Assembly (NCBI GenBank): GCA_944381555.1 | Contig: CALWLL010000044.1 | Span: 1-48,896 of the forward strand | From: an uncultured Agathobacter sp. | Lineage (GTDB): Bacteria; Bacillota; Clostridia; Lachnospirales; Lachnospiraceae | Direction: 5' to 3' | Length of the DNA: 48,896 nucleotides | Part shown: positions 2,554 to 19,010 of the stretch, piece after piece | Position numbering within the stretch: the stretch's first letter is position 1 | How the letters are laid out: each line of letters starts with the position of its first letter | Position numbers and translations under genes: made by a program | Notes under the pieces: model-generated | Databases searched by the model: none | What the model saw: the letters and a program-made list of their open reading frames with translations, nothing else | What the model was told of the DNA's origin: nothing

Positions 2554-3216
2554 ATGTTAGACATTTTAATTGTAGAAGATAATCATGAAATTGCTATGCT
2601 TCTACAGGATTTTTTAAGGAAAGAAAATTATATAGTCAGCGTGGCAGAGAATGGTGAAAAAGCCTTTGATTTGTTTGAGAGGTACGGTGCAAAGCTAATT
2701 ATCTTAGATATTATGCTTCCGGGTTTGGATGGGTTTGTGGTATGTTCTAAAATCAGGGAAAGCTCAAATGCACGTATCATGATTACCAGTGCTAAGAATC
2801 AAAAAGAGGATAAGCTCAAGGGCTTGAATCTTGGGGCAGACGATTATATTGAAAAACCTTATGATATAGATATTCTTCTGGCGAAGGTGAATGGTATTTT
2901 TAAGCGGAAGTATGGAATGGAAGAAATCGTTGAAGGAAATCTTACTTTAAACGCTGTAACACGCACCTTGAAAAAGGGTGGACAATATATAAATGTTACC
3001 GAGAAAGAGTTTGAACTTCTAAAGCTTCTTATTGAAAATAAAAATGTTACCATGAAAAAGGAGTACCTATTTAACAACATTTGGGGAAGCGACAGTGATT
3101 CAGAGATTCAAACAGTGGCAGTACATATCAGATGGCTTCGTGAAAAAATAGAAGAGGATTCTAAGAAGCCAAAACATATTATTACAGAGTGGGGAGTAGG
3201 TTATAGGTTTGAATAA
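2554..3216 (+). CDS. OmpR/PhoB-type response regulator
   Basis: A protein of 220 residues. The receiver domain (about 1-115) has the acidic pair in VEDN, the phosphoacceptor aspartate in LIILDIMLPG, the switch residues ITSA and the lysine in YIEKPYD. A C-terminal winged-helix DNA-binding domain (about 125-220) has the typical FELLKLL, AVHIRWLREKIE and GVGYRFE motifs. AAAGGAG precedes the start by 8 bases. The histidine kinase gene overlaps its stop by 8 bases, so the pair is co-translated. It most likely controls the ABC exporter genes just downstream, as in Bce-like or VraSR-like modules. Confidence 0.95.
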   Translation: MLDILIVEDNHEIAMLLQDFLRKENYIVSVAENGEKAFDLFERYGAKLIILDIMLPGLDGFVVCSKIRESSNARIMITSAKNQKEDKLKGLNLGADDYIEKPYDIDILLAKVNGIFKRKYGMEEIVEGNLTLNAVTRTLKKGGQYINVTEKEFELLKLLIENKNVTMKKEYLFNNIWGSDSDSEIQTVAVHIRWLREKIEEDSKKPKHIITEWGVGYRFE

Positions 3217-4429
3217 ATTTCGTAAAATAACAGTATTTGTCGTTTTCGTAGAAATAGTGATGATTACACTGTGTAATGTAATCTTTGCAGTTAAATCCGC
3301 TGATGATTCCGGCAAAATTTATCGTGTGGAAGCACAGAGAGTAGCAAAAAAGTTGCAAAATGCTTCTTTACAGGAGTTGGATTTATCTGAGTATGAAACT
3401 ATTGTAGCAGTCAGTGCGTTTATAGAGGATGAAGTTTGTAATAATCATTATGTAGTGGAAAAAATTAATGGGAATTTATACCGAATTGAGTATGAGGCTA
3501 AGCAGCAGGATAATCAGGTATGGATGTTTAATGTATGTCTGCTCCTTATGCTATTTGTAACCATTGTAGTATTTTGGTATATCTCACAGAAAGTATTACA
3601 GCCTTTTCATAAAATGAGCGAATTGACTTATGAACTTGCAAAAGGAAATTTATCGATGCCGATAAAAGCAGAAAAGAGTAAATTCTTTGGTAAGTTTCTA
3701 TGGGGAATGGATATGCTTAGAGCAACTTTAGAGGATAATAAGGAAAGGGAACTGGAACTGCAAAAAGAAAAAAAGACACTGATACTTTCCCTATCTCACG
3801 ATATAAAAACCCCGCTATCAGCCATTGATTTATATGCAAAGGCATTATCTGAAAATTTATATGATACGGAAGAAAAGCGAACGGAGGCTTTACAAGGGAT
3901 TGCAAGAAATGTTCAGGAAATCAAAGGCTATGTAAATGAAATTGTAACAGCGTCCAGAGAGGATTTTTTGAACTTAGAAGTTAAGGAGGGAGAATTCTAT
4001 CTTTCTTCGCTATTGAAAGATATTGAAGTTTATTATAAGGATAAACTGTCAATTTTACATACAGTGTTTACCATTGATAACACGGAAGATTGTCTCCTAA
4101 AAGGAGATATCAACCGAATAATAGAGGTACTGCAAAATATTATAGAAAACGCCATTAAGTATGGTGATGGAATTGCTATAGGAATTTCTTTTGATGATGA
4201 AGAGGATTGTAAATTAATCTCAGTTACCAATACCGGTTGCATCTTAAAGGAGGAGGAACTGCCTAATCTTTTTGAATCCTTTTATAGAGGCAGTAACAGT
4301 CAGGGTGTAAAAGGAAGCGGATTAGGACTTTATATAGCAAAAAAACTTATGAAAAAAATGGATGGAAACATATTTGCTGCGATTATGAATAGTGAATTTA
4401 CCGTGACGATAGTTATAAGAAAAGCATAA
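3209..4429 (+). CDS. sensor histidine kinase
   Basis: A membrane kinase of 406 residues starting at a TTG that overlaps the regulator gene. It has two transmembrane segments (about residues 7-27 and 107-127), an extracytoplasmic loop of about 80 residues between them, a HAMP-like linker, the H-box SLSHDIKTPLSA (about 197-208), and the ATPase part with N-box IIENAIKYG and G-box KGSGLGLYIAKK. It should phosphorylate the partner regulator. The moderate sensor loop separates it from the short-loop BceS kinases that rely wholly on the transporter for sensing, so the ligand could be sensed directly. The signal is not evident from sequence. Confidence 0.93.
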   Translation: MNKFRKITVFVVFVEIVMITLCNVIFAVKSADDSGKIYRVEAQRVAKKLQNASLQELDLSEYETIVAVSAFIEDEVCNNHYVVEKINGNLYRIEYEAKQQDNQVWMFNVCLLLMLFVTIVVFWYISQKVLQPFHKMSELTYELAKGNLSMPIKAEKSKFFGKFLWGMDMLRATLEDNKERELELQKEKKTLILSLSHDIKTPLSAIDLYAKALSENLYDTEEKRTEALQGIARNVQEIKGYVNEIVTASREDFLNLEVKEGEFYLSSLLKDIEVYYKDKLSILHTVFTIDNTEDCLLKGDINRIIEVLQNIIENAIKYGDGIAIGISFDDEEDCKLISVTNTGCILKEEELPNLFESFYRGSNSQGVKGSGLGLYIAKKLMKKMDGNIFAAIMNSEFTVTIVIRKA

Positions 4430-4435
4430 AGTAAT

Positions 4436-4471
4436 GCCTTCTTCAGAGCTTCAAAAATTTCTGAAGGAGGC
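4436..4471 (+). terminator. hairpin after histidine kinase
   Basis: GCCTTCTTCAGA and TCTGAAGGAGGC form a 12-bp stem with one mismatch around a loop of about 12 bases. The following sequence is AT-rich but has no clean T-run, so it may only attenuate read-through from the two-component genes into the ABC genes. A TATAAT box at 4501-4506 suggests a separate promoter for the exporter. Confidence 0.5.
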
Positions 4472-4537
4472 ATTTAATGATTGTTTAATAATTTCCCTTG
4501 TATAATCCACTTATAATTAAGAGGAAGGAGCAAAAGA

Positions 4538-9554: not shown

Positions 9555-9914
9555 ATGGCAAGAAACGGAGTTCAATTTAATGTCTGGCTTTCTGAGGAAG
9601 AAAAGTCAAAGATACAACAAAAAGCAAATAAGGCGGGCATTACTATGTCGGAGTATGTAAGACGTTGTGCTTTGGGAAAAAGGATTCCCAGCTATGGGGA
9701 TGTGACGATTTTACAAGGGATTTCGGCAGAGCTTGGAAAGATTGGTTCTAATCTGAATCAGATAGCACATCATCTGAATGCAGGTGGCAGCGTTTATTCC
9801 GTGTATTATGATTTGCTGGAAGTGATTAAAGATTGGAATGATTTCAGATTTATGGCGATGAAGCTGTTGGAGGATTTCTGCTGTGGGAAGTACCGCAGGA
9901 AAAGAGGTGCGTAA
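9555..9914 (+). CDS. mobC: MobC-type relaxosome accessory protein
   Basis: A protein of 119 residues starting MARNGVQFNVWLSEEE. It has a ribbon-helix-helix-like N-terminus, the segment AGITMSEYVRRCALG and the typical GxxLNQIAHHLNAGG motif of the MobC family (here IGSNLNQIAHHLNAGG, about 71-86). MobC proteins bind oriT DNA and help the relaxase open the strands. The relaxase start overlaps its stop, so the two are translationally coupled. An AGGAGG site precedes the start. Confidence 0.9.
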   Translation: MARNGVQFNVWLSEEEKSKIQQKANKAGITMSEYVRRCALGKRIPSYGDVTILQGISAELGKIGSNLNQIAHHLNAGGSVYSVYYDLLEVIKDWNDFRFMAMKLLEDFCCGKYRRKRGA

Positions 9915-11737
9915 TGGCGATTATTAAGCATATAGCAGTAAAGAACAGATATTATTCAGCGGCGGTGGAATATCTGACATGTAAATTTGATGAGCATACC
10001 ATGAAGCCACTGGTGGATGACAAGGGCAGAATTATGATGCGTGACAGCTTTCTTATCGAGGGTATCAATTGCATGGTTGATACCTTCGGTGCAGAATGTA
10101 TTGAAACAAATCGGCATTATGGTAAAAATAATGCAGCGAAGGATGTAAAGGCGCACCACTATATCATCAGCTTTTCGCCGGATGACAATATTACCATGCA
10201 GGAGGCAATGGATTTTGGCAAACAATATGTGGAGAAGTTTCTGCCGGGGCATCAGGCAATTTTGGCGGTGCATCCGGATGGTCACAACGGCACCGAGAAT
10301 GTTCATGTTCACATTGTAATCAATTCTGTGCGTAAATTGGAGGGGAAGAAGGAACGCTGGCAGGACAAAACCTGTGAATACAGGCAGGGCTGCAAGCATA
10401 AAAGTACCGGGACATTTATGCGAGCCACAAAGCAATGGGTAATGCAGGAATGTATGGTAAGAGGTTACAATCAGGTGAATCTGCTGGCTCGTTCCGATGC
10501 TCATAATTATTGGGTGGAAAAGCGGGGAAAGGAAAATAATCCCGACTTTAAGACGGATAAGGATATGATTCGTGAAAGGCTGGATGATCTGGTAGAGAAG
10601 GCGGATGACTTGGAGCATCTGACATATTATTTGGAGAATGTGGAGTACTGGCACATCCGTGTTACAAACAAAACCATTTCTTTTCAGATGCCGCATATGA
10701 GGAAACCGATTCGAGGGAAGTCTCTGGGGGAGGCATATGATAAGGCAGCTCTGGAGCAGAGGATAGAAAAGGCAATCGAGGCTAAAGAAGAAGTGGAAAG
10801 GGAACGAAGATTAGAAGCGGAACGAATTAGACAGGCAAGAGAGGAGGCAAGCCGAAGAGAGCAGGAAAAACAGCGTCAGATTGAAGCAAAGTCTAGGCAA
10901 AGTGGAGGGAGGACACAGCCGGATACACAGTTGAAAGAGCAGATGGAAGCTCCAGTGCAAAAGGAACCTGTTGCTAGAATTGATGCGCTTTCAAGTGGTG
11001 AATATGATGAGAACATGCCTACAGAGGCGGTAGAATCTGTAGTAGTACAGCCGAATATGGAAGCTATATCAGAGCTTGTGGATATAAGGGGAAAGCTCAT
11101 ATGTCTAGCGTATGAAAGGGAATATAATCTGAATAAGATTTCTGATTTGGATTATGACATCAGGTATTATAATCCGGATTATCAGTCTTATGTAGAGAAT
11201 CAGATACGTATAACGCAAAAACAGTCCTATATCAACCAGTGGACGAGGGAGCTTGTCAAGTGCAATTTTTCCCAGAGAGATTTGAAAAAGATGTATAATG
11301 AGCAGATTAAAGATGCGGAGGGTGAGATTGCGGAACTAAAGGTGGCTAATCAGAAAATTCTTTCAAAAGCCAGTTGTGGAAGTGAGGAAGAGCTTCGAAG
11401 CTGTCAGAATGATTATGAGCAGAAAAGGAAGTACCTTGATACACTGGCACAGAGGAACCAGAGCATTAACAGGGAATGTGAAGCGTTAAAAGAAAAGTAT
11501 AGGAACCTTATCTCACAGTTAGACGAGGCTACAAGTGAAAAGCTTATTACAGATAAAAAAGAATACCAGAAAAGCAGCGATGCCAAGGTAGAGGCAGTTT
11601 TGAAGGATATGTATGCAGAGGCATATTCCGGAATGGATGCACAAACTGCCATGCTAAGCGTGGAAACCGAGTTGCAGGAAATTACAGGAACCGTAAGGGT
11701 TGCAGATGGCATGGTCAGAAGCAGAGGCGGAAGATAG
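9914..11737 (+). CDS. MOBP-type relaxase/mobilization nuclease
   Basis: A protein of 607 residues. The N-terminal relaxase domain (about 1-250) has a candidate catalytic tyrosine in the YYSAAVEYL segment near residue 13 and the metal-binding histidines in ENVHVHIVIN (about 129-138), the HxH motif of VirD2/MobA-like relaxases. Residues 275-340 are a highly charged coiled coil rich in Glu, Arg and Gln, and a second coiled-coil region covers about 410-560. It should nick oriT and pilot the strand into a helper secretion system. No coupling protein or secretion genes are near, so the element is mobilizable and not self-transmissible. Confidence 0.92.
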   Translation: MAIIKHIAVKNRYYSAAVEYLTCKFDEHTMKPLVDDKGRIMMRDSFLIEGINCMVDTFGAECIETNRHYGKNNAAKDVKAHHYIISFSPDDNITMQEAMDFGKQYVEKFLPGHQAILAVHPDGHNGTENVHVHIVINSVRKLEGKKERWQDKTCEYRQGCKHKSTGTFMRATKQWVMQECMVRGYNQVNLLARSDAHNYWVEKRGKENNPDFKTDKDMIRERLDDLVEKADDLEHLTYYLENVEYWHIRVTNKTISFQMPHMRKPIRGKSLGEAYDKAALEQRIEKAIEAKEEVERERRLEAERIRQAREEASRREQEKQRQIEAKSRQSGGRTQPDTQLKEQMEAPVQKEPVARIDALSSGEYDENMPTEAVESVVVQPNMEAISELVDIRGKLICLAYEREYNLNKISDLDYDIRYYNPDYQSYVENQIRITQKQSYINQWTRELVKCNFSQRDLKKMYNEQIKDAEGEIAELKVANQKILSKASCGSEEELRSCQNDYEQKRKYLDTLAQRNQSINRECEALKEKYRNLISQLDEATSEKLITDKKEYQKSSDAKVEAVLKDMYAEAYSGMDAQTAMLSVETELQEITGTVRVADGMVRSRGGR

Positions 11738-11757
11738 ATGGAGTGAGCAGGAAAAGA

Positions 11758-11793
11758 TTATTGGGACTTTTAACAGCCCCAATAATTATTTTT
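11758..11793 (+). terminator. terminator between convergent relaxase and PBECR4 genes
   Basis: TTATTGGG and CCCAATAA form an 8-bp stem (extended by imperfect pairs) around a loop of about 12 bases, followed on the plus strand by a T-rich run. It ends the mob operon and overlaps the stop of the convergent minus-strand gene. Confidence 0.7.
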
Positions 11794-12439
11794 CTGTATA
11801 ATTTTCCAAACTAATAAGAGCAGATAATTCGTTGGATAGTTTTAGAGTAGATAATTTTACACCCTTTGCCACATAGCGGATATCTTTATAAATAGGCGTA
11901 TTTTTTGTCGCAGGTTTTGAAAAAATAGCTAAAATTTGAAAGGTCACATCCGCAAGATTTCGTATGTCTTCAAGTAAACATGAGCTTGGCACATAGTAAT
12001 GCTTGTCCTTGGTAAAACCAAGACAGAAATTAGTGGTTCCTGCCAATCTGTCAACGGATAACTTAGGACGGATTGAATTATATATTGCTGTCATTTTAGA
12101 TGATTTCAAGAAATTAACAATTAGTGGCAGTGCCTGCAATTTTAAATCAGTAGTGCCATCGGATTTGAAGGCAATATCACTTTCCTTTAAGCTGCTGTTA
12201 ATACATTTCTGATAGAATTGCGTAGGGTTATGTAGAATATTTCCCTGTGCATCAAGAAAATCTATCCCGGTAAGGTGTTGAAAATTACGTGGGAGAAATG
12301 CACTTTCAAAATATTCAATTTTATTATTTTGGCGGTTCTTATATATGAAGATGTAGTTGTAACCATTAAGAGCATTATCGTAATCCTTAGCGGCTTTTGA
12401 TATGATGCGAATGGCATCTTTTAACTTCTGTTGTTCCAT
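11786..12439 (-). CDS. PBECR4-type (Barnase/EndoU/RelE-like) nuclease-fold protein
   Basis: A protein of 217 residues. The segments FLPRNFQHLTGI (about 47-58), FYQKCINSSLKESDI, SIRPKL and YYVPSSCLLEDIRN match the pattern of PBECR4 proteins, predicted RNase-like folds found in phages and mobile elements of Firmicutes. There is no signal peptide or membrane segment. Catalytic residues are not established for this family; the conserved histidine in QHLTG is a candidate. Upstream on the same strand, in order, are a consensus promoter, a repeat RNA and a terminator, as for the toxin gene of a type III toxin-antitoxin locus. The toxin role is inference. A GGAAAGGATAT sequence precedes the start. 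Confidence 0.7.
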   Translation of the reverse strand: MEQQKLKDAIRIISKAAKDYDNALNGYNYIFIYKNRQNNKIEYFESAFLPRNFQHLTGIDFLDAQGNILHNPTQFYQKCINSSLKESDIAFKSDGTTDLKLQALPLIVNFLKSSKMTAIYNSIRPKLSVDRLAGTTNFCLGFTKDKHYYVPSSCLLEDIRNLADVTFQILAIFSKPATKNTPIYKDIRYVAKGVKLSTLKLSNELSALISLENYTEK

Positions 12440-12476
12440 AATGATATCCTTTCCGGAACAGTGTGTTTCAAGCGTT

Positions 12477-12519
12477 AAAAAAGAGAGTTATAATACCGCA
12501 GCATTATCAACTCTCTTTT
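12477..12519 (-). terminator. rho-independent terminator between repeat RNA and PBECR4 gene
   Basis: Read on the minus strand, AAAAGAGAGTT and AACTCTCTTTT pair into an 11-bp stem, with further inner pairing of GATAAT and ATTATA, ending in a run of six T. It would end most transcripts from the promoter at 12707 before the PBECR4 gene, leaving read-through to express the protein. Confidence 0.85.
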
Positions 12520-12528
12520 AATGGCTAA

Positions 12529-12630
12529 TTTTTCTGTTGTCCGCCAACGGCTGGCACATTCGTCCAGTAAGGCTTCAGGTTTTTCTGTTGCCTGCCAACG
12601 GCCGGTACATTCGCCCGGTAAGTCTTTCGG
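12529..12630 (-). repeat. two tandem 51-bp repeats inside the small RNA
   Basis: Copies at 12529-12579 and 12580-12630 abut exactly. By hand alignment they match at 42 of 51 positions. The paired-base segments CCAACGG and ACATTCG are identical in both, and differences fall mainly in loops or as a compensating pair (plus-strand T to C at unit position 24 with A to G at unit position 38). Confidence 0.8.
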
Positions 12631-12678
12631 ATTATGGTGTTAGCCCACCTGAAACAGCACGCTGTTTCTTCTACTATT

Positions 12679-12707
12679 ATTATACGAATGAGTTGATTTT
12701 ATGTCAA
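12679..12707 (-). promoter_or_regulatory. consensus sigma-A promoter for the repeat RNA
   Basis: On the minus strand TTGACA (12707-12702) and TATAAT (12684-12679) are separated by exactly 17 bases. This perfect promoter lies just after the STAND gene stop and fires towards the repeats, giving a start near 12672. Its strength suggests the RNA is made in excess of the downstream mRNA. Confidence 0.85.
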
Positions 12708-12735
12708 TAATGATTTCGAATTTTGTTTGCTAATT

Positions 12736-15042
12736 TTATGCAATAATTTTTTCTGCCATTTCAGGCACATTCATCAGTGAAATCTTATCTGTCATATTCA
12801 GGTTGTGCGCCTGTTCGTGGCATTGTAACACGTCCTCGTGTTCGCCACCAAGGTGCTTAGCTAAAATAGTTTCAGCCTGTGCATACATAAGACTGGCGCT
12901 TTTAACATTGCGGAGTATATGATACAACGCTGCAAGATTCTGGGTAATATATCCTGCCATTAAGGAGTCAGCTCCATATACATTTTTTACAAGACCAAGG
13001 CAGTTTGTGTAAATGCGGAGGGCTTCTGTGAAGCTGCGTTGGTCAAAGAGTAATCTTGCATATTGAATCAGGCAGCTGATACCATGGGGAGAACATTGCA
13101 TTTTCGTATATTCAAGAAGTTCATATGCCTTTTGAATATACTCCAGTGCCTTCGTGCTCTTTCCCTGTATGTGATAATAGCGTCCGGCATCCAGATATAA
13201 GGTGGAAAACTGCAGTATATCGGAACCATTTTTTCCTGCCAGAAAGACTGCCTTCTCCTCGAACTCTATGGCTTTGTTAATGTTTTTATGAATATTCCAA
13301 GCCTCTATTGCTTTGAAATGCTCCAGTAAATAGCAGTCAGAGTTGTTTTCAAAGTCTGATTTGATGCAAAGGTATTCATATGTGCTGAGCAACCGTGAAA
13401 AACTGCGGTAGCGGTGATAACGGTTATTAAACTCTAATGATGCCCGCACGATGGAAAGCCAAAGAGCGGAAGACTCATATGTCGTAAAGCGGTCAATCAT
13501 ATCCACCATATAAAGCGAAAACCGTATCACCTCGGAATTGTCAGTTGAGAAGCTATTTTTTATGTTTACCAAAAGAGGCTCGCAATCCTTTGTGGTAAGG
13601 AATTTCCCTGCATTTGTAAGTTTTCGAATATAAGGCTTTATGGAAACGACACCACATCCGATAGTCACTAATCCTTTAAAAATCAGATTTTCCAGCTGGT
13701 CGGTGTGATTGGCACACCATTTATGCAGGAGCTTTAGCGGAAATCCATTCTCAGGGGCAAGTGCAATATAGGATAATAACTGCTGTTCTCTTTTCGGCAG
13801 GTCATTATATCCAAGCAATTGCAGCATATGTGTCTGGAATACATCCTTTAGCCGATGATTGTCCTTTGTCAGAGTCAGGGCACTTGTTTCAGCAGGGAGA
13901 AGAATGTTTTCCTTTAGGTCGTTCTTTAACACGTCTGGAGTCATGATTTGGTAAGCCAACAGCCTTCCTACAAGCTCTGTTGCCACAAGGTTGTAGTTAA
14001 TGGTTTCCAATATGGTATTCAGTTCATCTTTATAAGAGACCATAAGCTCCGATGAAGCATTTGTAAGTGTGTTCTCTAATAATGTGAGAGCAACCGCATC
14101 CGAAGGCTCCAGATGATAGTGGGCATAGGTATCATTACAGCTACGGCATGTCACTAACACGGAGCATTTCAGTGAGCATATCTGCTGTAACAAGGAATCT
14201 TCCGCTTCTAAGGTGTAGAAATTATCTATGATTAGTAGAGAATCCTCCCGCAAAGTTTTCAGAAAACGATAATGCTTTCTAAAACGGTCCTTTTCACTTA
14301 AAGAATCTGTATCATCTACAAAATCAAGGCCCGCAATCATTTCATAAAAGCTTCCGGTGTATTCCAAGTAAAGAATATTGGTATATTCCTTCTTATGTTC
14401 CTTGGCATATTGCTTGGCAAGCTCGCTTTTCCCAATGCCAGGCAAACCTGTGATAAAGAGAGTCCTGTGTTGTTGTAAAAAGGTTGAGACTGCTGATATA
14501 TCCTCATCCCTGTTGATAAAATTCTTTATCGGTTTTGGAACATCTGTCGTTAATATAACGTCGGTAATGTCAGGGGATGGGGAAGAGCTATTTTTCGTTG
14601 CCTTTATAAATGCTCTGGATATTCCGAAGAGAAAGCAGGAGCATAAAAATTCTGCGATAGCAATATTATCCACATCATTATAAAGTTCTAAAAGTCCGTT
14701 CTTCTCATAATCAGAGATGGAACAGTCCTGTATTAACAGCTTTTTCGTATCAGAAGCTAATTTCCCCCAGTCACTGATAATGGGAAAGAGTTTGTTGACA
14801 AAATCCTTCTTCATAAGCTCCTGATGCTCTGGTGCAACATAAAAGCTTACAATCTTTGGACTGATGCGCTGTCTGCCATTAATCCAGTGACAGACTTGTC
14901 CGTTGTCAAACACGAAATCCGTGTGTTCATCTTCTATAAATGCTTCAAATATATAATATAGCAGGTCAACCTGCGTTATATCAGCTGCCTTTAAATGTTG
15001 CATGATAATGGTTATCGTCGTATGAAAATCAAGTCGTAACAT
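12736..15042 (-). CDS. STAND NTPase (NB-ARC-like) with C-terminal TPR repeats
   Basis: A protein of 768 residues; the start MLRLDFHTT is chosen because AAGGAG sits 9 bases upstream, while the longer frame has no such site. An N-terminal domain of about 170 residues is unrecognised. The nucleotide-binding part has Walker A GLPGIGKS (199-206), Walker B LLIIDNF (269-275) and a sensor arginine in LVTCRS. A helical middle follows, then TPR-like repeats from about residue 590 (YLDAGRYYHIQGKSTKALEYIQKAYELL and later copies). Such proteins switch on when the C-terminal sensor binds a ligand; known roles include transcription control and phage defence (Avs-like). No effector domain is recognised, which leaves the N-terminal domain or the neighbouring PBECR4 protein as possible outputs. 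Confidence 0.8.
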   Translation of the reverse strand: MLRLDFHTTITIIMQHLKAADITQVDLLYYIFEAFIEDEHTDFVFDNGQVCHWINGRQRISPKIVSFYVAPEHQELMKKDFVNKLFPIISDWGKLASDTKKLLIQDCSISDYEKNGLLELYNDVDNIAIAEFLCSCFLFGISRAFIKATKNSSSPSPDITDVILTTDVPKPIKNFINRDEDISAVSTFLQQHRTLFITGLPGIGKSELAKQYAKEHKKEYTNILYLEYTGSFYEMIAGLDFVDDTDSLSEKDRFRKHYRFLKTLREDSLLIIDNFYTLEAEDSLLQQICSLKCSVLVTCRSCNDTYAHYHLEPSDAVALTLLENTLTNASSELMVSYKDELNTILETINYNLVATELVGRLLAYQIMTPDVLKNDLKENILLPAETSALTLTKDNHRLKDVFQTHMLQLLGYNDLPKREQQLLSYIALAPENGFPLKLLHKWCANHTDQLENLIFKGLVTIGCGVVSIKPYIRKLTNAGKFLTTKDCEPLLVNIKNSFSTDNSEVIRFSLYMVDMIDRFTTYESSALWLSIVRASLEFNNRYHRYRSFSRLLSTYEYLCIKSDFENNSDCYLLEHFKAIEAWNIHKNINKAIEFEEKAVFLAGKNGSDILQFSTLYLDAGRYYHIQGKSTKALEYIQKAYELLEYTKMQCSPHGISCLIQYARLLFDQRSFTEALRIYTNCLGLVKNVYGADSLMAGYITQNLAALYHILRNVKSASLMYAQAETILAKHLGGEHEDVLQCHEQAHNLNMTDKISLMNVPEMAEKIIA

Positions 15043-15114
15043 GGCATGCGACTCCTTTCGTAAAACTTCTATTAAAATCATACTACAAACATATGTTCGA
15101 AACAAGTGAAACCT

Positions 15115-15855: not shown

Positions 15856-17298
15856 ATGAATAAATTAGTTGAATTTTATAAGAAGCATTGGGGTGTATCG
15901 GTGTTACTTGTAGGAATGTTAGCTTTGTTGATAATGAAAATCATCATGTATTTGTTTAAGAAAACAATTGTTTTGGTGATAGGAAAGGCTAATGCCATGA
16001 TATATTATTTTGCATCTCAACAATTTGCAAATCAACTGATAGAATTTAGCAATATAACAGATTATACATGGGTTAATGCAGTTATTAGTTATTTAGAATT
16101 GTGTATTTTATTCATTGTAATATGGTTCGTAATCGCGGTAATTATGGCAATTTTAGTTACAGTTATTGAAAATATTGGGGAAGTGCTTAAGAAAAGAATT
16201 TTGGGTAAAAATCATGAGAAAAGTTTGAGGTATAATACTTTTCAAGTATGGTTTTTGAAGGTAAGTGCAGATACTAATATATTGCTATTCTGGATTAAGT
16301 TTTATATATGTGGTGTCAGAACTTCTAGAGAAACAGATTTGTCGATAGTAAGGAAGGCTAAATTTTTCACACTGGAAAGTATAATTTCATTAGTGAAAAA
16401 TTGTTTGGGATTCTTTTTTGAGTTTTCGTTGTTACATCTAGTCTTTGCAATATATGTAGTTTTTATTTATTATTCGCAATCGTTTTATGACTATTTTGTG
16501 CATTTTTGTGAATTTTTAAAAACAGGAATTTCAATTTCTGATTCAATAGAATTTTTTGAATTGATTTCAATTATCTTTTTGCTAGCATACATATTTCTTG
16601 ATGTAAGGCATAAAGCAACTGGTTACTCAGAAATAAGAACGGAACGTTTTAAGGAATTATTTCAAATGGAGGAGAAACTTCTAAACATTTTGAGAAATAT
16701 TAACTACGCACTAGAAACAAATATAGAGGTCATTGCTGATAGAAAACCGTATATTTTACAGGATGGTGCAAAGAATCTTACAGGAAAAGATTGCTATATT
16801 TATGGTGGAAAAATAGAATATGAAGATAAAAAGTATTGGAGTAGTTTTAATCGGGATGATACATATTTTCAGTTGTGCAACCTAATAGAAATGAACGAAG
16901 AATTTGATAGCCTTAGTGAGTTAAATGAAGAGTTTAAGAAATCCTCACTTAGTTATTCAAATATATATTTGATTGATCATGAAACGATGTTGACTAAACT
17001 AATTCATTTTTATTTTCCGGGACGAGAGAATTTTGAATATAAAAAAATGCAATTGTTTTGTAAAAGTAGTATGGAAAAATGGTTTGAAAGACGTTTTATA
17101 AAACCAATCATGTATGACGATGAGAAAAAATATTATACAGAGGAACAAGCAAATGCAGTGATTTTGGATGCATCAAATGCCTTAGATTTTGAATTAATGC
17201 AAGCATTTGAGTTAGAAGTATATTTAAGGCGTTATGAGAAGAAGATGATAAAACGGTTTAAAAAGATTAATAAATTTTCTAGGTTTAACGTTAACTAG
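15856..17298 (+). CDS. multi-pass membrane protein of unknown function
   Basis: A protein of about 480 residues. The start MNKLVEFYKK follows the previous stop by 4 bases with GGGAGTGG upstream; the longer frame overlaps that gene. Membrane segments are predicted by eye at about residues 12-33, 73-107, 188-216 and 235-256, with a basic linker near 108-130. The C-terminal half is soluble, charged and rich in Asn, Glu and Lys. The DNA is clearly AT-rich compared with the mob genes. I recognise no family. A role in the cell envelope as element cargo, such as superinfection exclusion or defence, is possible but not shown. Confidence 0.6.
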   Translation: MNKLVEFYKKHWGVSVLLVGMLALLIMKIIMYLFKKTIVLVIGKANAMIYYFASQQFANQLIEFSNITDYTWVNAVISYLELCILFIVIWFVIAVIMAILVTVIENIGEVLKKRILGKNHEKSLRYNTFQVWFLKVSADTNILLFWIKFYICGVRTSRETDLSIVRKAKFFTLESIISLVKNCLGFFFEFSLLHLVFAIYVVFIYYSQSFYDYFVHFCEFLKTGISISDSIEFFELISIIFLLAYIFLDVRHKATGYSEIRTERFKELFQMEEKLLNILRNINYALETNIEVIADRKPYILQDGAKNLTGKDCYIYGGKIEYEDKKYWSSFNRDDTYFQLCNLIEMNEEFDSLSELNEEFKKSSLSYSNIYLIDHETMLTKLIHFYFPGRENFEYKKMQLFCKSSMEKWFERRFIKPIMYDDEKKYYTEEQANAVILDASNALDFELMQAFELEVYLRRYEKKMIKRFKKINKFSRFNVN

Positions 17299-17330
17299 TG
17301 TTTTTGGGTACTGGAATGGAGGAAATGATT

Positions 17331-19010
17331 TTGAAAACAAAACAACAGAGATGCTACATCTACACCCGTGTATCCACCTCCATGCAGGTAGATGGCTATA
17401 GTTTAGATGCGCAAAAAGATAAATTGCATAAATACGCAGACTACCAGGATATGATTATTGCTAGGGAATCCTCCGACGAGGGTAAATCCGGTAAAAGTGT
17501 AGAGGGAAGACCGCAGTTCCAACAGATGCTTGCTGATATTGAAACAGGTAAAGACAATGTGGATTTTGTGCTTGTATTTAAATTATCCCGATTTGGTAGA
17601 AATGCAGCGGATGTATTATCTTCTCTTCAGAGAATGCAGGATTTTGGCGTCAATCTTATCTGTGTGGAAGATGGTATCGACAGTTCCAAAGATGCAGGAA
17701 AACTTATGATTTCCGTATTATCGGCGGTGGCTGAAATTGAGCGTGAAAATATATTGGTGCAGACAATGGAAGGTCGTAAGCAGAAAGCCAGAGAAGGCAA
17801 GTGGAATGGTGGTTTTGCACCTTACGGTTATCAGCTTATCAATGGAGAACTGCACCCTGCTGAGGATGAAGCAGAGATAATTCGTATTATTTATGATAAG
17901 TATGTGAATACCACCATGGGAGTTGCGGCGATTGCAAATTTCTTGAACAATAGTGGATACAAGAAAAAGCTACGTCAAAATAATACAATAGAAGGATTCT
18001 CAACATCATTTGTAAAAGGTGTGTTGGATAATCCAGTGTACTGTGGCAAGCTTGCCTTTGGCAGAAGAAAGAATGAAAAGATACCGGGAACCCGTAATGA
18101 GTATCATGTGGTAAAGCAGGAAAACTATATGTTAAATGACGGAATTCATGAGGGCATTGTGTCAGAGAAATTATGGAATCAGGCACATAAAAAGAGAAAA
18201 GAAACCGGTATTGCCAATGTAAAAACCCATAGCTTAGATCATGAGCATATTTTATCCGGTATTATTAAATGCCCTTTTTGCGGTAGTGGAATGTATGGCA
18301 ATGTGAATCGTAAGAAGCATCCGGATGGTGGACATTATCGGGATTATTTCTACTATGCCTGCAAGCACAGAACCTATGTGAATGGTCATAAATGTACTTA
18401 TCGCAAGCAGTGGAATGAGGATAAAATAAATGATGCTGTGGAGGAAGTAATCCGTAAGCTTGTGAATAATCCGAAGTTCAAAACAGAGATTCAAAAGCAC
18501 ATTGGCAATAGTATTGACACAGCGGAATTAGACAGGGAACACGACGGATTGAAGGAACAGTTAAAGCAGGTGACCGGAGCCAAGAATAAGCTGGCATCAC
18601 AGATGGATAACTTATCTGTATCAGACAGGCATTATGACAAGAAATATGATGATATGCAGGAACGTCTGGATAAGCTTTATGATGAGATGGAAGACATCGA
18701 AACTTTGATTGAAGAAGTGGAAACCAGACTGTATAATATTAAGCAGGAGAAAATTTCAAGCGACAATGTATATCAGTTCCTTTTATTCTTTGATAAGCTG
18801 TATGACAGATTTACGGATATAGAGAAGAAAACTTTTATGAAGAGTTTCCTTGATTCTGTATATATTTATGAGGAAGCAAAAGAGGGCGGAAGAATATTAA
18901 AGAGCTTGAAGTTTAAGTTTCCGGTATTTTTCGACGGACAAGAAATAACGGAACTAGATTGGGACAATGAAAGTACCGTTGAGACAGTAGTACAACTTTC
19001 CTACAAATAG
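17331..19010 (+). CDS. large serine site-specific recombinase (integrase)
   Basis: A protein of about 560 residues. TTG at 17331 is the likely start, with GGAGG 8 bases upstream; the in-frame ATG at 17325 is only 2 bases from that site. The catalytic domain opens with YTRVSTSMQ (nucleophile Ser) and includes KLSRFGRNAADV and the conserved segment AEIERENI. The recombinase domain follows, then the zinc ribbon (CPFCGSG ... CKHR ... KC, about residues 315-365) and a coiled coil (about 395-475). The tail STVETVVQLSYK matches the peptide at the rlmD junction at 53-79, so the attachment core probably overlaps the end of this gene. It should integrate and excise the element unaided by a transposase. 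Confidence 0.93.
   Translation: MKTKQQRCYIYTRVSTSMQVDGYSLDAQKDKLHKYADYQDMIIARESSDEGKSGKSVEGRPQFQQMLADIETGKDNVDFVLVFKLSRFGRNAADVLSSLQRMQDFGVNLICVEDGIDSSKDAGKLMISVLSAVAEIERENILVQTMEGRKQKAREGKWNGGFAPYGYQLINGELHPAEDEAEIIRIIYDKYVNTTMGVAAIANFLNNSGYKKKLRQNNTIEGFSTSFVKGVLDNPVYCGKLAFGRRKNEKIPGTRNEYHVVKQENYMLNDGIHEGIVSEKLWNQAHKKRKETGIANVKTHSLDHEHILSGIIKCPFCGSGMYGNVNRKKHPDGGHYRDYFYYACKHRTYVNGHKCTYRKQWNEDKINDAVEEVIRKLVNNPKFKTEIQKHIGNSIDTAELDREHDGLKEQLKQVTGAKNKLASQMDNLSVSDRHYDKKYDDMQERLDKLYDEMEDIETLIEEVETRLYNIKQEKISSDNVYQFLLFFDKLYDRFTDIEKKTFMKSFLDSVYIYEEAKEGGRILKSLKFKFPVFFDGQEITELDWDNESTVETVVQLSYK
18975..19001 (+). other. candidate attachment site inside recombinase 3' end
   Basis: Codons for TVETVVQLS at the recombinase end align with the rlmD junction at 53-79. 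No second copy was found within the window near the element's left side, so its use as an att core is inferred from the family habit. Confidence 0.35.

Follow-up and report, generated by a model that had tools for sequence, protein, structure and literature searches.

A two-unit pseudoknotted RNA and its PBECR4 gene, a probable type III-like RNA-inhibited toxin module in an Agathobacter contig

Known RNA-inhibited toxins and the PBECR4 locus

The locus described here consists of a repeat RNA and a PBECR4 gene on the minus strand (12707-11786) of a 48,896-nucleotide stretch of DNA from an uncultured Agathobacter sp. (contig CALWLL010000044.1); the whole stretch is called the window. Its anatomy resembles that of several described systems. 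In CptIN of Eubacterium rectale the units are 45 nucleotides long, and a ring is assembled from two RNAs and two toxins (passages of PMC4627078). The repeat number of CptI is about two, ToxI has 2.8-5.5 near-identical monomers, and TenpI has about 2.1 (excerpt of PMC12373285). In ToxIN, AbiQ and TenpIN the terminator sets the ratio of RNA to protein, and searches for type III families looked for structural homologues of ToxN (both in a section of PMC5086642). A passage of a human-microbiome RNA survey also names ToxN-linked RNAs. Other RNA-inhibited toxins are not of the ToxN type. For example, the AbiF toxin of C. difficile is neutralised by direct binding of RCd22, an RNA in which no cleavage was seen between the motifs (excerpt of PMC12373285); another type III system, AvcID, has an unrelated toxin (passage of PMC10511110).

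A sequence-only reading of the window had proposed a new type III-like toxin-antitoxin locus, composed of a perfect promoter, a leader hairpin, two 51-base tandem repeats, a rho-independent terminator with six T and a 217-residue PBECR4-like gene. All of these elements were present, in that order. They are given below, all on the minus strand, with hairpin loops in square brackets.

12707-12679, minus: promoter, -35 TTGACA at 12707-12702 and -10 TATAAT at 12684-12679, spacer 17 bases, 12 of 12 consensus bases
12668-12651, minus: leader hairpin GAAACAG/CTGTTTC, 7 pairs, loop CGTG, seen in the sequence and in the minimum free energy fold
12649-12636, minus: hairpin H0, GGTG[GGCTAA]CACC, whose loop L0 (12645-12640) is predicted to pair with tail 3
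12631-12580, minus: unit 1, with tail 1 UCCG (12631-12628), stem CCGG/CCGG, hairpin H1 GUUG[GCAGG]CAAC (12599-12587) and linker AGAAAAA
12579-12529, minus: unit 2, with tail 2 CCUG (12579-12576), stem CUGG/CCAG, hairpin H2 GUUG[GCGGA]CAAC (12548-12536) and linker AGAAAAA
12528-12523, minus: tail 3 UUAGCC, predicted to pair with loop L0 and close the RNA
12519-12477, minus: intrinsic terminator, stem of 17 pairs, tetraloop UGCG, T6 at 12482-12477
12439-11786, minus: PBECR4 gene, open reading frame of 217 amino acids, predicted nuclease toxin

The gene order is the same as in ToxIN, AbiQ and TenpIN, and the ratio of RNA to protein would likewise be set by the terminator; these systems differ from the locus in the toxin family, and the locus has two units and a closing helix. 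AbiF/RCd22 also places an RNA with two motifs and a terminator ahead of the toxin gene, and it is the nearest tested precedent, although its protein belongs to Abi_2/AbiF and its RNA is unrelated. On the evidence of anatomy, the locus would work like a type III module, and the type III-like architecture that had been proposed was also conserved in relatives. However, since fold searches did not establish a structural relation to ToxN, the locus is not filed as a member of ToxIN, CptIN or TenpIN. Taking all lines of evidence together, we regard it as likely that the locus is a type III-like, RNA-inhibited toxin module.

Simple scans by themselves are not strong evidence for the locus; conservation and covariation in relatives raise it above chance. 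The tandem repeat (12529-12626) has a period of 51 nucleotides, 1.9 copies and 85% matches. The two unit stems differ on both sides (CCGG/CCGG in unit 1, CTGG/CCAG in unit 2), a double change that had been noticed from the sequence. Compared with shuffled sequences, the RNA fold has a z score of -3.4. The terminator folds at -16.6 kcal/mol, and the first T's of its T6 fall within the stem. Within 11700-12900, four promoter-like sites with at least 9 of 12 consensus bases were found against 4.3 in shuffles, and a single site had 12 of 12. The promoter scan found no promoter-like site between the terminator and the PBECR4 gene, and the gene therefore probably depends on read-through. Among the 25 class-A RNAs, a promoter of at least 10 of 12 bases was present in 17, but its score was above all 200 shuffles in 12 only. 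A run of T4 or longer followed the hairpin in 22 of the 25; in five of those (L011, L014, L016, L022 and L030) the run sits some bases past a stem ending TTT or CTCT. At the leader position, relatives have hairpins of variable sequence, as judged by eye.

Structure and covariation of the RNA

The units share one plan: a 5' tail, a variable stem, a hairpin (mostly GUUG..CAAC) and an A-rich linker. Pairing was scored as at least four Watson-Crick pairs in 23 distinct RNAs. Tail 1 pairs with loop 2 in all 23 (mean 11.9 and highest 19 when partners were shuffled among loci), tail 2 with loop 1 in 21 of 23 (23 with G-U pairs; shuffled mean 4.7, highest 12), and loop L0 with tail 3 in 23 of 23 (shuffled mean 12.0, highest 19). 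None of the 5000 partner shuffles reached the observed numbers. The loop/tail combinations are varied, and include CAGG/CCUG, CGGA/UCCG, GGAG/CUCC, AGAG/CUCU, CGAG/CUCG, UAGG/CCUA and CAGA/UCUG. Pairing of a tail with the loop of its own unit was rejected, as it occurred in 0 of the 19 RNAs whose loops differ (1 of 19 with G-U).

In the alignment of 25 RNAs, the full structure pairs 93.3% of cells, compared with 81.5% in shuffles, and 22 of the 34 pairs show changes on both sides. The covariation score was 0.391 against 0.171 in shuffles, and 0 of 500 shuffles were as high; structures slid along the alignment pair 26-48% of cells. The weaker helices are H0 (82%) and the unit-1 stem (72%). For H0 this is due to misplacement, in the alignment, of those copies with a seven-base loop.

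A held-out test took 13 of the 25 RNAs that had not been used before, and 11 of the 13 could be segmented. Nine of the 13 keep all three helices, among them RNAs from phage records of Erysipelothrix and Enterococcus in which stems or loops have changed. L124 keeps two helices and three pairs in the third, L081 has three pairs each in two helices, and L069 and L116 have a broken hairpin. Some of these RNAs are near training RNAs (L074 is close to the window RNA). The RNA of Erysipelothrix phage phi1605 is not close to the training set, and it keeps all three helices with different stems and loops.

Covariation thus shows that three pseudoknot helices link the two units. Tail 2 and the unit 1 hairpin form an ordinary H-type pseudoknot, and the pairings of H2 with tail 1 and of H0 with tail 3 close the molecule. 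The two units are therefore not free monomers, and the compensatory changes show selection on the RNA. Accordingly, the proposed layout of a type III-like antitoxin stood in so far as the RNA is pseudoknotted and conserved, but the view of the repeats as independent 51-nucleotide monomers did not, because the tails pair across units and the leader hairpin closes the RNA.

ToxI and CptI are pseudoknotted as well; unlike in ToxI monomers, the pseudoknots of the window RNA link units. CptIN is similar in having about two pseudoknot units, an A-rich loop adjoining the hairpin stem, a terminator and then the toxin gene. It differs in that the window toxin belongs to another sequence family (PBECR4, with no ToxN-type Pfam match), and the window units are tied together by inter-unit pairing and a leader hairpin. 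Because of this pairing and closure, the window RNA seems made to remain a single molecule. CptIN builds its ring from cut RNAs, and we infer by analogy that the window RNA might be a tethered version of such a ring. A three-unit version of the window RNA (L085) was also observed, adjoining a PBECR4 gene remnant.

An RNA that lies in the 5' region of a gene and ends in an intrinsic terminator might also be a cis-regulatory leader, i.e. a riboswitch or attenuator that responds to a ligand, or to PBECR4 itself, and thereby sets the read-through into an ordinary gene. Conserved pseudoknots occur in riboswitches too. However, no alternative (antiterminator) pairing between the 5' arm of the terminator and the RNA core was found in the 25 RNAs (mean z +0.3), and RNAs that keep every pairing remain at sites with no gene found. 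An attenuator is disfavoured for these two reasons, and such a leader seems unlikely overall. A feedback leader that binds PBECR4 is a possibility that overlaps with the toxin-module reading.

Distribution of PBECR4 loci and upstream RNA classes

The family sample of 397 genomes had PBECR4 relatives in 25, the class sample of 391 in 29 and the phylum sample of 398 in 4, and the window's own genome is counted in all three. That genome contains one RNA of the window class and one PBECR4 gene. When the upstream regions were read by eye, nearly all PBECR4 genes were preceded by a non-coding stretch, mostly with a promoter and a terminator.

PBECR4 homologues that never carry the repeats had been named as a finding that would speak against the toxin-antitoxin proposal. 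Instead, a covariance model (R1) made from 25 window-class RNAs recognised this class at 37 of the 66 PBECR4 loci scanned, and drum RNA (RF02958) was above the gathering score at 15 further loci. The 37 comprise the 25 training RNAs, L002, L003 and L048, which repeat training RNAs, and additionally L009, L010, L012, L024, L031, L045 (weak, E 0.0045) and the viral L124-L126. The Rfam scan covered 60 of the 66 loci, the other six carrying the window class; the 66 leave out the class match G412:C39, which has two stops. Of the remaining 14 loci, L026 lies at a contig edge, L027 and L061 are gene fragments (L061 with a sub-threshold drum match of 41.6 bits), the gene of L043 is incomplete, and ten have intact genes preceded by other stretches. 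R1 without filters gave no convincing match on these 14 loci (best E 0.15). The phylum sample of 398 genomes added two further loci, one with drum RNA (52.3 bits) and one with an unclassified stretch.

The ten intact genes with unclassified stretches are L028, L041 and L052-L059. Each shows upstream a promoter-like site that matches 9-11 of 12 bases, although such sites are common by chance, and a script found a hairpin and then a T-run before the gene in 8 of the 10. Two groups could be discerned among them. L052-L055 have a common upstream RNA class before PBECR4 (UUUGUCAGGUAG ... CUCCUGAAUAGG ... CCGAGAAA), with fold z scores of -2.1 to -3.2 in three of the four. L028 and L056 resemble each other; by eye, they have two apparent tandem H-type pseudoknots. 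The hairpins there are of GGUC/GACC type, and just downstream, beyond an A-rich linker, is a stretch with which their loops can pair.

Drum RNA stands directly upstream of PBECR4 at L033, L034, L036-L039, L044, L049-L051, L062 and L127-L131 (Clostridia, and plasmids of Enterococcus and Streptococcus). It occupies the same place as the window RNA, ahead of genes of a sister protein clade, but has another sequence and model. The window gave no match to RF02958 at the gathering score, nor up to E 5 at 12400-12800. Likewise, nothing in Rfam matched the window RNA at gathering score, and a relaxed search returned five matches far below the gathering scores. The shared position suggests that drum RNA might be the antitoxin of the sister PBECR4 clade, and we infer a partnership of the two. 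In the literature searched, drum RNA had one passing mention.

Gene order and strand are kept down to about 30% protein identity, across many bacterial families, plasmids and phage records. The order of promoter, RNA, terminator and PBECR4, which was to be compared among homologous loci, is thus retained in the relatives. The plasmid collection had no match to the window or L040 protein and 20 records with the drum-type protein L038, of which 4 were examined; the plasmid records name these genes by domain only. The phage collection had three records for the window protein (2 examined), one for L040 and none for L038. Among viral contigs, the window protein found none and alignment A1 found one. 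Other genes and RNAs accompany some of these loci: in the Enterococcus phage record L126, three RatA-type (type I antitoxin) RNAs lie around the PBECR4 locus (1619-1706, 2696-2781 and 3136-3221), and on the Enterococcus faecalis plasmid of L127 an AbiH family gene (3305-4495) comes after PBECR4.

The RNA and the gene might also form a mobile or selfish RNA cassette, or be neighbours that are inherited together without a functional link. Orphan copies of the RNAs do exist, and one genome has six drum RNAs. This explanation is nevertheless very improbable, as order and strand are kept over the range of identity and hosts given above, and the compensatory changes indicate selection on the RNA.

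Co-inheritance of RNA and protein

A protein tree was made from 42 PBECR4 proteins, selected among the loci whose genes were judged intact, and the RNA labels were assigned by the author. A branch with 100/100 support divides the tree: drum, the L053-L055 class and L058 fall on one side, and the window class, the L028/L056 class and L041 on the other. Proteins on the window's side come from several bacterial families, and also from one viral contig and two phage records. Because of long branches, the places of L126, L058 and L031 are unsure. The RNA class changes 5 times on the tree, where the least possible is 4 and the shuffled mean is 15.8. The RNA class thus follows the protein tree, a sign that RNA and protein have been inherited together. 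This one protein family is preceded by RNAs of several classes, at least two of them well modelled and two or more others besides, and the classes follow its tree. Several classes tracking one protein tree fit protein binding better than ligand sensing, which is a further point against a regulatory leader.

RNAs often persist beside broken or lost PBECR4 genes. R1 found 45 RNAs in 38 of the 397 family genomes, compared with PBECR4 in 25 genomes. Of these RNAs, 22 have no known PBECR4 locus directly downstream; five of the 22 have a match to PBECR4 (E <1e-7) within 1.5 kb downstream, four being remnants (L079, L085, L090 and L091) and one, L092, the neighbouring gene, which runs on the opposite strand. 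A single weak downstream match (E 0.003) was seen for L116. Moreover, the gene looks broken at ten loci that have the RNA (L004, L006, L009, L013, L014, L018, L020, L024, L025 and L060), a count that may include false frameshifts from draft assemblies. In G302 (L009), for example, an insertion lies between the RNA (153580-153706) and the gene, which is without residues 85-148. The one-unit RNAs L024 and L090 accompany damaged genes.

Drum RNAs show a similar picture in the class genomes, with 23 in 18 of 391. A long PBECR4 frame follows 11 of them, a fragment follows 3, and for 9 there was none in the available bases (one at a contig end). G630 has six drum RNAs: L097 is accompanied by a PBECR4 gene, L111-L114 have none downstream, and L115 is at a contig end. 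Of 51 intact PBECR4 genes, by the author's count, 41 have a recognised RNA class and ten have unclassified stretches.

These counts also bear on the idea of a ribonucleoprotein effector, in which the RNA would be a cofactor or sensor that activates or aims PBECR4, e.g. a decoy disrupted by a phage nuclease or anti-RNA factor, and not an antitoxin. The closed two-unit pairing is more elaborate than ToxI repeats, and AbiF/RCd22, of related layout, has been tied to Cas13 ancestry (excerpt of PMC12373285). But gene-less RNAs are common and all intact genes seen have an upstream non-coding stretch; therefore a protein that is dangerous alone fits better than one that is inert alone, and the effector idea is given a small chance.

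The earlier proposal of a new branch was supported, but the system is far wider than one locus and has several RNA classes. We lean, with moderate confidence, towards the view that the PBECR4 proteins of Bacillota make up a new, mobile superfamily of toxins inhibited by RNA, and that their antitoxin RNAs fall into at least four unrelated classes (drum among them) that follow the protein tree, the window class being a one-RNA closed ring.

The PBECR4 protein

The window protein matches PF18813 (PBECR4) with E 3.2e-29 and 103.1 bits (cut-off 27), in agreement with the assignment made from its sequence pattern. H55 is kept in 36 of 36 aligned proteins, and S153 is Ser or Thr in 35 of 36. In the AlphaFold2 model (pLDDT, the predicted local distance difference test, 94.5) these residues lie in a helix (50-56) and a strand (148-155). 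They match the His and Ser/Thr pattern that was proposed as the active site in five of the six PBECR families (passage of PMC5512222).

No Pfam family other than PBECR4 matched the window protein up to E 0.01, including ToxN-type and Abi_2/HEPN families. The claim that PBECR4 stands outside the known type III toxin families was thus borne out for sequence families; as a novelty it is tempered by the precedents for RNA-inhibited toxins that are not ToxN (AbiF/RCd22 and AvcID). A profile search of PDB sequences found no ToxN-type toxin, and one unrelated match (E 0.079). Foldseek against the PDB gave no match at E 0.001 or better, with unrelated top rows, and did not confirm the nuclease fold. 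ToxN, CptN and AbiQ chains were not among the best 50 matches listed in each of two fold searches, a result that still leaves room for a ToxN-like structure. The fold search of a viral model library returned two good matches, both unnamed (template modelling scores 0.68 and 0.66), and PADLOC, PHROGs and NCBIfam gave no match to the protein.

The PBECR domains of polyvalent proteins belong to the same predicted nuclease group. Those are mostly proteins of phages and conjugative elements, many of them multidomain or likely injected (passage of PMC5512222), whereas the window-type proteins are single-domain and linked to an RNA. No paper with PBECR4 by name was found in the literature searched, preprints being outside that search.

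Proposed mechanism

The proposed mechanism draws on the gene order, the RNA covariation, the co-inheritance of RNA and protein, the leftover RNAs, the His and Ser/Thr residues and the mobile-gene surroundings. The single strong promoter would produce an abundant RNA of about 195 nucleotides that ends at the terminator, and occasional read-through would give the PBECR4 mRNA. Since read-through would be only occasional, the RNA is proposed to exceed the protein. The RNA would fold as two linked units, in which loop 2 pairs with tail 1 and loop 1 with tail 2, each pairing adjoining an A-rich linker; the leader loop and the last tail would then pair and close it. This one-piece RNA would bind directly, probably to two PBECR4 molecules (a 1:2 stoichiometry), and block the active site (His55 and Ser/Thr153). 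If the RNA is lost or lags, through loss of the mobile element or phage shut-off of host transcription, free PBECR4 might act as a toxic nuclease, cutting RNA and stopping growth. The likely use would be stabilisation of the mobile element, abortive infection, or both.

If this is correct, a toxin family would be added to the RNA-inhibited (type III-like) toxin-antitoxin systems, and drum RNA would acquire a function. The window RNA would be a natural single-molecule RNA inhibitor with a freely covarying tail/loop pairing code. Moreover, phage-defence or element-stability modules would be predicted on Clostridia chromosomes, enterococcal plasmids and phages, where the genes have a domain name but no described function.

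Genomic setting

On one side of the cassette are a relaxase and its NikA-like partner (9555-11737, plus strand), and on the other side is a large serine recombinase (17298-19010, plus strand), which in NCBIfam is closest to SCCmec Ccr proteins, with scores below cut-off. An NTPase gene (12736-15105, minus strand) lies directly upstream on the same strand; its product has weak nSTAND3/NB-ARC-like matches and C-terminal tetratricopeptide (TPR) repeats, and it is possibly a defence gene. Because of these surrounding genes, the cassette appears to be carried by a mobilisable integrative element. In L002 and L003, a similar NTPase gene end was seen by eye upstream of the RNA.
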